Below are positions 35,140 through 38,779 of a DNA stretch of 64,000 nt, in pieces; the first letter of the stretch is position 1, and each line of letters begins with the position of its first letter. Made by a program: the position numbers and the translations under genes. The stretch covers positions 620,001 through 684,000 of the forward strand of contig NZ_CP041203.1 in NCBI RefSeq assembly GCF_008033115.1, read 5' to 3'. Under the pieces are notes generated by a model. The model was not told the origin of the DNA and searched no databases. It worked only from the letters and a program-made list of their open reading frames with translations. Source of the DNA: Cellulomonas sp. Y8 (GTDB lineage: Bacteria; Actinomycetota; Actinomycetes; Actinomycetales; Cellulomonadaceae).

Positions 35140-35598
35140 GTGCGGAGCACCGAGGTGACCACCGGCCGGCGCGTGGCGGTCGTGCTGGAGCCGGGCGACG
35201 AGGTGCTGGCGGCGCTGACGGAGGCGTGCCGGGACCACGGCATCCGGCAGGGCTTCGTCCCCGTGTTCTCCGGGGCGTTCCGCACCGCGCGGTTCATCGC
35301 GGCCGACGTGCCGGTCGACGACCAGGAGCCGCCGCTCCCCCACGAGGTCACCGTGACCTACACCGAGGGCATCGGCAGCGGCACGATCCTGTGGGACGCG
35401 GAGACCGGCACCCCCACGCCGCACCTGCACCTGGCCGTGGGCGTGAAGAACGCCGCCGCGGCGGGCTTCGCCGGGCACGTGCTGAGCGCCGAGACGCACT
35501 ACACGGTCGAAGTGCTCGTCGAGGAGGTCGTCGCGCCGGCGCTGCTGCGCGTGCCGGACCCGCGCGCGTACGGCATCCCGACGATGCACTTCGCCTGA
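35140..35598 (+). CDS. PPC (DUF296) domain protein
   Basis: 152-residue single PCC/PPC domain, trimeric in known structures and linked to AT-hook proteins in plants; in bacteria its role is unknown. The fold is shown by VVLEPGDEVLAALTEACRDHG (outline) and the TPHLHLAVGV metal-type His motif. No DNA-binding hook is seen. GTG start just after the deaminase stop, so one transcript. Confidence 0.82.
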   Translation: MRSTEVTTGRRVAVVLEPGDEVLAALTEACRDHGIRQGFVPVFSGAFRTARFIAADVPVDDQEPPLPHEVTVTYTEGIGSGTILWDAETGTPTPHLHLAVGVKNAAAAGFAGHVLSAETHYTVEVLVEEVVAPALLRVPDPRAYGIPTMHFA

Positions 35599-35609
35599 CC
35601 GAGCGGTTC

Positions 35610-36185
35610 TCAACCCGGATCGCGCTGTTCCTCAGCGATAATCACTACAGCGATCTGACTGAGCGTGAGAATCACGATCAATAACTCAGCGAACGCGTAA
35701 AAGGCCGAGAATAGGCCGAGCGCTAGCGCGACCCTGTGGGAGGTCAACATGCCCGCGGGCGCTACATCGATATCGCCTCCAAACGCTACGGCGAGCGAGC
35801 AGGTCACAATAAGGACGAACTGGCACACCGACGCCCAGGCCAGCACAAAGATGAGGTCCGACAGTGCACTCTTTCCCGGGACTGACCCTGCCGCGCGCGA
35901 CCATAGCCGTGCACGGCGAGCCCCCGGTAGGCCGATTGACAGTACAGTAGCTGAGACACAGGCACCAAACGCGATTGCCGCAAAAGTGAACCCTATGTCG
36001 GCGAGCTCGTTAATCCGCATCCCGCCTACTGGCAGGTGATCCACCGCGAGCGCGACCACCACCGCGGAAGCCCCCGCGAGCCCGAAGGCAGGGTGAGCGA
36101 TTATCTCGCGACGCCGAGGCCAAACCTGGCCGCGCACAAATCTCAGGTCTCTCTCCGCGACGGCAAGCTCGGGCGAGTCGCCCAT
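35610..36185 (-). CDS. four-helix membrane protein, RexB-like partner
   Basis: 191 residues, no known domain recognised. Four membrane segments are predicted by eye: about 31-50, 63-88, 110-136 and 150-184. The N terminus is charged and faces the cytosol. Start ATG 36185 has GAGGAG 5 bp upstream inside the end of the partner gene; a GTG at 36191 would overlap that gene. Base content is near 50% GC against 74% outside, so acquired DNA. The soluble-plus-four-TM pairing resembles lambda RexA/RexB, where RexB forms a channel that depolarises infected cells. That is inference. Confidence 0.7.
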   Translation of the reverse strand: MGDSPELAVAERDLRFVRGQVWPRRREIIAHPAFGLAGASAVVVALAVDHLPVGGMRINELADIGFTFAAIAFGACVSATVLSIGLPGARRARLWSRAAGSVPGKSALSDLIFVLAWASVCQFVLIVTCSLAVAFGGDIDVAPAGMLTSHRVALALGLFSAFYAFAELLIVILTLSQIAVVIIAEEQRDPG

Positions 36186-36187
36186 CG

Positions 36188-37102
36188 TCACTCCTCAGCG
36201 TCACCCGTCTCTGCGCTCTCCCGGCCCATCGCACGGATGCGAGCCACCAACCGCCTCGCACCAGCAGCGAGCGCGACCACTTGCTGCTCTAGCGGACTTG
36301 ACGCATCGACTTGGGCGGTCGCTCGCATTATATGACTAGAGAGGCTCACTGAACGCTCGCCGTCGTAGTCTGGCATCGAACCCTTGACGGTGGCATTCCT
36401 GAGCGGACCGACAGGGTTCTCGGCAACTTCCTTGACGTCCTGGACAATCCCCTCGTCTTTGGCGAGACTCTGACCGCGATCCGCATTCAGCTGCACCTGG
36501 ACCTGCGCCGCGTTTGAATCACCGGCCTGAGCCAGAAGATTGATCGCGCTCGCCGTCCAACTCTTGTTGGGCCGCCGCATGGTGATCGACGCTTCTCGGA
36601 TTCGCGCGAATCGCTCAATCTCGCGCACGAAAGACGCAGCAGGAACGGGATTCAGGCTGATAACGAGCTCGTCTAGACCGAGCCTTTCTCGGCCGATCGC
36701 AGTAAGAAGTCGCTCAATTTTCGAAACGGGCACGCCAGGCCGCTTCCGCTCGACCACGAGGAAGCGGGAGCCGTAATCAAAGAAACCCCAAACTCCGTTC
36801 ACCATGAAACGACCGGCGCCAGGATCAACGACGGATGCCACGGAAGTAACAGGATCGAAGAGGAGCGGGTACTCGTCCTCGCTCCCCGACACAAAAAGGA
36901 GCGCGAGAGTCCCCGATGAGTCCTGCATGTCGCTCACTGCAACTGTCTCTCCGGAGACCGAGGCTCGCAATTGTCCGAGCGGCAGTTTCGCGATCCGGGA
37001 GAAGAACTGGCGATAGTCGAGAAGTTCTTCGTCGCCGGAGCCTGGATTGATGTGGCCGTGGACGCTGAAGGCTGTGAGCGAACGCGTTACCTTGCGAGCC
37101 AA
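36188..37102 (-). CDS. hypothetical protein, RexA-like sensor candidate
   Basis: 304 residues, soluble. A beta-rich N-terminal half (LTAFSVHGHI, then MVNGVWGFFDYGSRFLVVERK) is followed by a helical segment VSKIERLLTAIG, a beta stretch LDELVISLNPVPAASFVREIERF, then a C-terminal helix pair ending ARRLVARIRAMGRE. This order (strand-rich N half, VEPK-like segment, scaffold repeat, C-terminal helices) recalls RexA and related DUF families in prophages, though the match is by layout, not by motif. TTG start is weak. Low GC and codon use unlike the neighbours point to horizontal transfer. Confidence 0.65.
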   Translation of the reverse strand: MARKVTRSLTAFSVHGHINPGSGDEELLDYRQFFSRIAKLPLGQLRASVSGETVAVSDMQDSSGTLALLFVSGSEDEYPLLFDPVTSVASVVDPGAGRFMVNGVWGFFDYGSRFLVVERKRPGVPVSKIERLLTAIGRERLGLDELVISLNPVPAASFVREIERFARIREASITMRRPNKSWTASAINLLAQAGDSNAAQVQVQLNADRGQSLAKDEGIVQDVKEVAENPVGPLRNATVKGSMPDYDGERSVSLSSHIMRATAQVDASSPLEQQVVALAAGARRLVARIRAMGRESAETGDAEE

Positions 37103-37196
37103 TTCTCCCCCTGAGTGATTGGTGCGCGAGAGCTGTCCGCGCCCACCGAGGCTAGAGCGCGCGCCTCGGCGCTGGTCGTAGACCGTGTCCCATTCA

Positions 37197-37220
37197 GCCG
37201 ATCGGCGTAATGCGATCGGC
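37197..37220 (-). terminator. hairpin downstream of the PucR gene
   Basis: Inverted repeat with 8-bp arms GCCGATCG (37197-37204) and CGATCGGC (37213-37220) around 8 nt, 6 bp after the PucR stop. It also marks the right edge of the low-GC island. Confidence 0.5.
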
Positions 37221-37225
37221 TCTGG

Positions 37226-38779
37226 CTACTCGGTCTCGTCCAGGCAGGTCATCGCGAGGAACAGGTCGACGCGGTCGGACATGGTGCTCATGTCGCGGCT
37301 GGTCAGCTCCTCGATGCGGGCGATCCGGTAGCGCAGCGTGTTCGTGTGCAGGTGCAGCTGCCGCGCGGTCTCCTGCCACGCGCCGCCGCCGTCGAGGAAC
37401 GCACGCAGCGTGCCGACCAGGTCCGCGTTGTGCCGCTCGTCGTAGGACAGCAGCGGTGCCAGCACCTCGCGGGCGTACCCGGACCGGGTGCTCTCGCCGA
37501 GCATCCGCAGCAGCGCGCGGTGCGTCTGCACGTGCAGCGACGTCGACACCACCACGGGCTCGGGGCCCGAGGCGTTCTGCACCCGCTCGACCGCCGTCGC
37601 GATCGCCGAGTTCAGCCGGCTGACCCCGCTGACCGGGTCGCTCATCCCGACGCGCAGCTGCCGGCCGTCGAGCAGCAGCAGGTACTCCTCGGCCAGGTGC
37701 TCGGCGAGCGGCCGCTCGTCGTCGCCCACGCCGTTGACCAGCAGGATCGCCTGGTCGTCGAACCGGCAGCCCAGGACCCGGTGCCCGCGGGCCGTCAGCG
37801 TGCGCTGCAGCATCTCGAGCACCGCCGCGCGCGGGAACCGGGCGTCGTCGACCCGGGCCGCGACGATCGTCGTCTCGTCCGACGGGGCCATGCCCTCCAG
37901 GCGCATCCGGGCGGAGATCGCGCCCGGCGACGCCTCGGCGTCGCGGATCGCCGTGATCAGCGCGGCGACCTGCGCGTCCCGGGTCTCGCGCCAGCGGGCG
38001 GCGAGCTCCATCTCGACGCGCAGCGCGCCCACGACCGCGTCCAGCGCGAGCGCCACCTCGTCCGAGAACGACCGGTGGTCGCCCCAGCAGCCGAAGAAGC
38101 CCGACCGGTCGCGGGCGCCGGTGCGGACGATCGTGGCCGGCCCGTGCTCCGTGCCCTCTCCGGGCAGGATCACCCGCTTGTCGTGCTCCCGGGCGATGAC
38201 GGCGTTCCACTGCTCGGCGACCTGCGCGCGGTCCGGGGCGGCACCCGCGGTGGCCAGCAGCATCCCGGTCTCGTCGATCACCCAGCAGCCGACGGCGAAC
38301 TCCGCGGTGAACTGCGCCAGCAGCTCGGCGACCCCGCCGCCGCGCGACACCGTGTCGGCGATCCGGCGGCTGAACCGCATCGTGCGGTTCGCCAGCCCGG
38401 CCGCGGAGCCCGGCTGCCGGGTGGCGATCTCGTCGGCGATCCGGCGGAACGACACCCCGGGCGACACCGTGAGCAGCGTGAGCCCGCGGGCGCGGCAGAT
38501 CGCGATGACCTCGTCGGGGATCACGCCGATCTCGATGAGCCCGAGGACGACCGCCGCCACGTTCTGCTGCGCCAGCGCGCCGAGGAAGGTCGCCGCACCG
38601 TCCGGCCGGTCGAGCCACAGCCCGCTGGTGAGCACCACGTCACCCGTCGACAGGAACCGCGACGGGTCGGGCAGGTCGGTGATGTACGCGGCGGTCACCG
38701 GGCGGTCGAGCGCGTCCGGCTCGGCGGCCACCACGCTCAGCCCGAGATCGGGTGCGGCCAGGAGGTCACGGACGTCCAC
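37226..38779 (-). CDS. PucR-family transcriptional regulator
   Basis: 517 residues. N-terminal PucR sensor domain (about 5-125, SVVAAEPDALDRPV and YITDLPDPSRFL) and C-terminal helix-turn-helix of the HTH_30 type (about 455-510, ARQLHLHTNTLRYRIARIEE). Members switch on purine or amino-acid catabolic genes in response to a ligand. It lies near the adenine-deaminase gene, but separated by the low-GC island, so a regulatory link is only a guess. GTG start at 38779. Confidence 0.88.
   Translation of the reverse strand: MDVRDLLAAPDLGLSVVAAEPDALDRPVTAAYITDLPDPSRFLSTGDVVLTSGLWLDRPDGAATFLGALAQQNVAAVVLGLIEIGVIPDEVIAICRARGLTLLTVSPGVSFRRIADEIATRQPGSAAGLANRTMRFSRRIADTVSRGGGVAELLAQFTAEFAVGCWVIDETGMLLATAGAAPDRAQVAEQWNAVIAREHDKRVILPGEGTEHGPATIVRTGARDRSGFFGCWGDHRSFSDEVALALDAVVGALRVEMELAARWRETRDAQVAALITAIRDAEASPGAISARMRLEGMAPSDETTIVAARVDDARFPRAAVLEMLQRTLTARGHRVLGCRFDDQAILLVNGVGDDERPLAEHLAEEYLLLLDGRQLRVGMSDPVSGVSRLNSAIATAVERVQNASGPEPVVVSTSLHVQTHRALLRMLGESTRSGYAREVLAPLLSYDERHNADLVGTLRAFLDGGGAWQETARQLHLHTNTLRYRIARIEELTSRDMSTMSDRVDLFLAMTCLDETE

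Follow-up and report, generated by a model that had tools for sequence, protein, structure and literature searches.

A horizontally acquired gene pair in Cellulomonas sp. Y8, a candidate anti-phage module with the layout of RexAB

Background

The RexAB system of phage λ is marked by a two-domain RexA/RdgC-like fold (8TWQ), non-specific DNA binding and depolarisation of the membrane upon infection, and to our knowledge it was long known from λ only. Kiwa, another defence system, consists of the four-TM protein KwaA and of KwaB (about 315 aa), for which a membrane sensor and an effector acting on phage DNA have been proposed.

A paper of 2026 counts five RexAB-like systems, and those named in the excerpt used here are prophage-borne (λ, Sbash, CarolAnn, Butters and a P. 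putida prophage; PMC12894663). According to excerpts of the respective papers, DUF4747 is the reported domain match of Sbash gp30 (PMC6426596), CarolAnn gp44 (PMC6426606) and Butters gp30 (HHpred E 140; PMC7542560), as it is of λ RexA, and all three are soluble proteins paired with a four-TM partner. The same kind of excerpt states that both genes are required in the CarolAnn and Sbash systems (PMC12894663), that inhibition in Butters is due chiefly to the soluble gp30 (PMC7542560), and that "DUF4747/CarolAnn" is treated as an immune operon (PMC13373217, 2026).

The DNA analysed here, called the window, is a stretch of 64,000 nucleotides, positions 620001-684000 of the 4.48 Mb, one-contig genome of Cellulomonas sp. 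Y8. It carries an acquired pair of genes, A and B, which shares its order and predicted topology with these phage systems and may function in a similar way.

Gene arrangement and insertion site

The features of the locus, from left to right, are as follows.

35140..35598, plus strand: left flank gene, native, 152 aa, with the same ORF in L035; we take it to resemble a PPC/DUF296 protein
35599..37225, no strand: acquired insert between two native genes, delimited by GC contrast and by empty sites in congeners
35610..36191, minus strand: gene B, 193 aa (GTG start) or 191 aa (ATG start), from ORF reading and hydropathy; putative channel effector
36188..37102, minus strand: gene A, 304 aa, soluble, TTG start, from ORF reading
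37105..37111, minus strand: GGGGGAG, a purine-rich possible ribosome-binding site, 2 bases short of the TTG start of A
37226..38779, minus strand: right flank gene, native, 517 aa; presumably similar to a PucR-type regulator

The two minus-strand open reading frames lie where the first-pass annotation had placed them, and its description of overlapping or abutting genes for a soluble and a four-helix membrane protein is borne out: B follows A on the same strand with an overlap of 4 bp, and at a threshold of 1.6 the hydropathy plot has four segments in B (residues 30-48, 70-88, 113-131 and 167-185) and none in A. The length of 191 residues originally given for B is correct from an ATG; the GTG that overlaps A lies two codons earlier and gives 193. 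That both are real genes follows from the joint presence of their homologues in each of four other genomes (below). No third gene lies inside the insert, a scan found no promoter- or terminator-like site at it, and a reading of the window ORFs by eye showed neither prophage nor repressor genes beside the pair.

The insert has a GC content of 61.5% (A 60.2%, B 62.0%) against 75.3% for the window, and when sampled every 50 bases it is the lowest-GC stretch of its length in the 64 kb, about 4 standard deviations under the mean. GC3 is 0.67-0.69 in A and B versus 0.98 in the right-hand neighbour. The compositional contrast claimed at the outset (about 50% against about 75%) is real, with the figure of 50% set too low.

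A DNA search with both flanks against 60 congeners, our own genome included, found at least 11 others in which the flanks are near each other, with identities of 78-96% for the left and 79-94% for the right. Among the matches listed (11 congeners), the site is empty in seven, with 6-119 bp between the flank matches (G1143 6 bp, G009 8, G001 13, G1134 19, G1152 20, G015 37 and G017 119), and holds unrelated genes in four. G009, by flank identity (94-96%) the closest congener among the matches listed, has the empty site, with a few bases between the stop codon of the left gene and the end of the right one. Because the orthologous site is empty in congeners, the pair must have been gained, and the insert is horizontally acquired. 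The proposal of acquisition is thereby upheld by the seven empty sites among the 11 congeners listed together with the GC contrast; the opposite pattern, a pair kept at this site in all relatives with normal base content, was looked for and did not occur. As to the mechanism of insertion, the window has no tRNA gene, no integrase marks the event, and the repeats at the insert are short and imperfect.

We note that the gap between the flanks is a variable site in the genus, with quite different genes in four other genomes among the matches listed. By eye, the occupants in G1136 (2.3 kb) and G034 (2.2 kb) are a glycosyltransferase-like gene and a second small gene, and those in G1133 (8.8 kb) and G253 (9.0 kb) are genes for beta-glucosidase and ABC transporters. 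Judged by the look of these occupants, a defence hotspot at this site was rejected.

Homologous pairs in other genomes

A first protein survey found A in none of 57 other genomes. Within the order there were three further matches among 396 genomes (our own included), one of which, in G081 (L005), was later dropped as chance (21.9 bits, two stops in frame); the class added one more, G491, among 394 genomes, and the phylum, under a looser limit, added G859 and four weak matches (L010-L013, E 0.004-0.01) among 396 genomes, the four being dropped before the family was counted. These samples of order, class and phylum overlap. In the class to which G859 belongs, A was found in one of 24 genomes, G859 itself.

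The search for the pair across genomes that the first-pass annotation had advised recovered it, with the gene order kept, from four further Actinomycetota: Zhihengliuella salsuginis (Micrococcaceae), G064, G491 and G859, which with the window represent several families and include one member of another class. Identities to the window proteins are 46% (A) and 51% (B) in Zhihengliuella, 41% and 39% in G064, 38% and 34% in G491, and 23% and 30% in G859. In all five loci the soluble gene A precedes the membrane gene B in the same orientation; the junction is an overlap of 4 bp in the window and in G491 and of 38 bp in G859, and a gap of 69 bp in Zhihengliuella and of 149 bp in G064. Three of the B proteins have four hydropathy segments; those of G491 and G859 have three, their first segment falling below the 1.6 threshold. 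Pairwise identities of A and of B are correlated with r = 0.92, and the true labeling ranks highest of the 120 possible, a result that with five genomes is inseparable from the shared ancestry of the genomes. G491 apart, the kilobases that bear the pair in the other loci (three of four) are GC-poorer than the entire stretch. The pair is rare and moves together between distant bacteria.

Searches of mobile DNA gave little. Among phages, a third of A was matched by five records (E 0.05-0.3), four of them annotated as packaging or terminase genes and one unannotated. Nothing useful came from plasmids and IMG/VR with A, from IMG/VR with B, from phages and IMG/VR with the G859 A, or from plasmids and phages with the G064 A (L004), which gave one partial match at E 0.7.

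Genes of defence or of mobile elements lie near the pair in three of the four other loci (known defence genes in two, a TrwC relaxase in one). In Zhihengliuella (L017) the genes upstream on the same strand encode an Eco29kI endonuclease and C5 methyltransferase, an HSP90-type ATPase, an Mrr-domain helicase and a 198-aa protein. In G064 (L014) a gene for a DDE transposase precedes A by about 0.3 kb, and a defence gene, PD-Lambda-3_B, is found 5 kb past B; in G491 (L015) the relaxase gene is about 2 kb from the pair, and in G859 (L016) an integrase-like ORF, recognised by eye, is 8 kb off. PADLOC matched four of the 10 neighbour proteins submitted (eight from L017, two from L014), which is a raw count with no background rate. 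Defence-gene neighbours, for which a test had been advised, are present near two relatives of the pair, in Zhihengliuella and G064, and the insert itself has no other genes.

Two observations concern these neighbourhoods in their own right. Downstream of the Eco29kI restriction-modification genes, L017:4893-9548 holds the genes for the HSP90-type ATPase, the Mrr-domain helicase and the 198-aa protein head to tail; the last has no Pfam or PADLOC match, and the three-gene run is possibly a further defence operon. In G859 a gene for a 234-aa protein with no Pfam match (L016:7793-8497) converges on B.

Sequence relationships of protein A

The window A has no match above the cut-off in any library scanned, and the other four A proteins have none above the cut-off in Pfam; PADLOC matches neither A nor B of the window. 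The weak matches that were seen, to DUF4747 and DUF6731, are collinear with the models and all lie under the curated cut-offs. DUF4747 (cut-off 27 bits, best A score 17.0) is matched by the G064 protein at E 0.0042 (residues 151-223 on 151-223 of 257), by the window A at E 0.11, and by the five-member consensus at E 0.069 (128-224 on 124-222). DUF6731 (PF20505, cut-off also 27 bits) is matched by the consensus of the five at E 9e-4 and 19.3 bits over 149 residues (77-225 on 79-227 of 295), a level seen with the consensus only; of the single proteins L004 alone matches it, at E 0.081. The A proteins of Zhihengliuella, G491 and G859 (L003, L007 and L009) have none of these Pfam matches. At the same place on A, phrog_10040 is found at E 0.2 with the window protein and at E 0.036 with the consensus and L004, and phrog_10865 matches L004 at E 0.049. 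MMPL was matched by the window protein alone (E 9e-4, 18.7 bits, cut-off 20.5); as neither the other four members nor the consensus has this match, it was set aside as chance.

Profiles of A and B found nothing credible among PDB sequences, and an AlphaFold2 model of A built from two sequences only has a mean pLDDT of 36.6 and a pTM of 0.24. Genome surveys for DUF4747 (0 of 58 and 0 of 246) carry little weight since no control genome was detected either; that for DUF6731 gave 0 of 197, with one control detected below the cut-off. Within the collection of papers searched, none names DUF6731 and five name DUF4747.

Comparison with λ and actinophage Rex proteins

The Pfam models of RexA (PF15969) and RexB (PF15968) match none of the A and B proteins, respectively, of the window, L003, L004, L007 and L009, and the λ controls score E 1e-97 and 8.5e-92. 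In profile comparison with hhalign, A matches RexA with a probability of 0.3% and B matches RexB with one of 0.1%. RexA itself reaches only 0.1-0.5% against the accepted actinophage Rex-like families in the same comparison, so the failure of the profiles does not dispose of a Rex reading. In shuffle tests A gave z 3.2 against λ RexA and nothing against three other RexA sequences (1 of 4), and B gave z of about 2.4-2.5 against Toast gp41 and Sejanus gp45, with the control of RexB against CarolAnn gp43 at 3.3; we regard these values as noise. Of the resemblance to RexAB first proposed, the layout and order have held up, in five genomes, and the Pfam models and profile comparison (0.3%, 0.1%) lent it nothing.

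No pairwise or profile similarity of A or B to the CarolAnn, Sbash or Butters proteins was detected. A reaches 0.4% against the CarolAnn family and 0.1% against both the Butters family and DumpsterDude; B against the phage membrane partners reaches 0.1-8%, including 2.6% (E 0.018) for Butters/Toast and 8% (E 0.0043) for DumpsterDude. As controls, CarolAnn versus DumpsterDude gives 96.6% and CarolAnn versus Butters 1%, and their membrane partners (CarolAnn versus Butters) 29%. The controls show the profile method to be underpowered for RexA, and they show that A is not close to the CarolAnn family, which hhalign links to DumpsterDude but not to A. The weak collinear DUF4747 match of A is one thin lead to the Rex kind: the connection depends on HHpred matches from the literature, some of them very weak, and our own hmmscans of λ RexA and of the CarolAnn, Sbash, Sejanus, Butters, Toast and DumpsterDude proteins gave no DUF4747 match. 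We note that in Mycobacterium phage Sejanus (L051:1213-2764) a gene annotated as RexA-family, with 35% identity to CarolAnn gp44, precedes one for a small hydrophobic partner.

Interpretation

Our preferred reading, which we hold with belief and doubt in balance, is that A and B, gained by horizontal transfer, make up an anti-phage module of two genes that would operate as RexAB does, membership of RexAB itself being unproven. The same-order pair in five genomes, the empty sites, the defence and relaxase neighbours and the weak DUF4747 match all point that way; our confidence is lowered by λ RexA having no DUF4747 match in our own scan, and by a profile method that joins CarolAnn to DumpsterDude and A to neither. 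By analogy with the Rex-type systems we infer an anti-phage role with A as sensor and B as effector channel. A, the putative RexA-like sensor or DNA-binding part, would reside in the cytoplasm and detect phage DNA or some phage product; this would trigger it to act on B, the four-helix membrane protein, which might then open and depolarise the membrane, and the infection would abort. A further proposal, that the pair represents an undescribed chromosomal two-gene phage-defence family of Actinomycetota, in which a protein of the DUF6731/DUF4747 superfamily is paired with a membrane effector of a new four-helix kind, is tentative, and we lean slightly against it. If it were true, it would show that RexAB-type immunity also belongs to islands of the cell's own genome and is not chiefly a matter of prophage exclusion.

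Three other explanations were weighed. The roles of the proteins could be reversed, as in Kiwa, with B sensing an envelope change at phage attachment and A being an effector on phage DNA, or the soluble protein could be the antiviral component, as in Butters; sizes and topologies are comparable. For the window proteins PADLOC (version 2.0.0, E up to 1) gives no match to KwaA, KwaB or any other model, Pfam gives none to KwaB, and the A-B order is opposite to that of kwaA-kwaB. A survey for the KwaB family found it in one of 149 genomes, G171, which is not a known carrier of the pair. The Butters variant draws on gp30 being the main inhibitor there, according to the excerpt cited (PMC7542560), and A has a profile probability of 0.1% against that protein. 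We judge such an arrangement improbable as a whole.

The pair might also be mobile cargo with a non-defence role, toxin-antitoxin-like or in envelope stress, lying near defence genes because both ride mobile DNA. Mobile-element genes are close in two of the four other loci (the transposase in G064 and the relaxase in G491), and the nearby defence genes are raw counts with no background rate; against this, order and topology agree with proven Rex-type systems, and known defence genes occur in both loci whose neighbours went through PADLOC. We think a non-defence role unlikely, if a serious competitor. The view that the two genes are native and simply lie where the DNA is richer in AT is refuted by the empty sites, seven of 11 congeners among the matches listed, to which the lack of A in all 57 other genomes of the first survey adds, and we give it next to no credence.

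A chromosomal pair in distant actinobacteria, its window copy unrecognised by PADLOC, would widen the RexAB-like class. The pair would also supply new proteins for structural work, and it would make a link between DUF6731, DUF4747 and RexA testable.

Comparison with known systems

λ RexA and RexB share the layout of A and B: the gene for a soluble protein of some 300 aa comes first, and that for a small four-TM protein follows in the same orientation. The two systems differ in that B exceeds RexB in length by about 50 residues (193 versus 144), that A and B do not lie beside a CI-type repressor gene, and that Pfam and profile matches between the two systems are lacking. Kiwa likewise combines a four-TM protein with a soluble one of about 300 aa. 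The consensus of A is collinear with DUF6731 (PF20505), but below its cut-off.

The CarolAnn, Sbash and Butters systems share with A and B their actinobacterial hosts, a soluble gene that precedes a small membrane gene, genes that overlap as A and B do in the window, and DUF4747 as a reported weak domain match. The six phage soluble proteins compared are 332-403 aa long versus 294-307 aa for A (as aligned), and the phage membrane partners have 115-200 aa and three or four hydropathy segments. The CarolAnn, Sbash and Butters systems are carried by prophages, A and B by a chromosomal insert.
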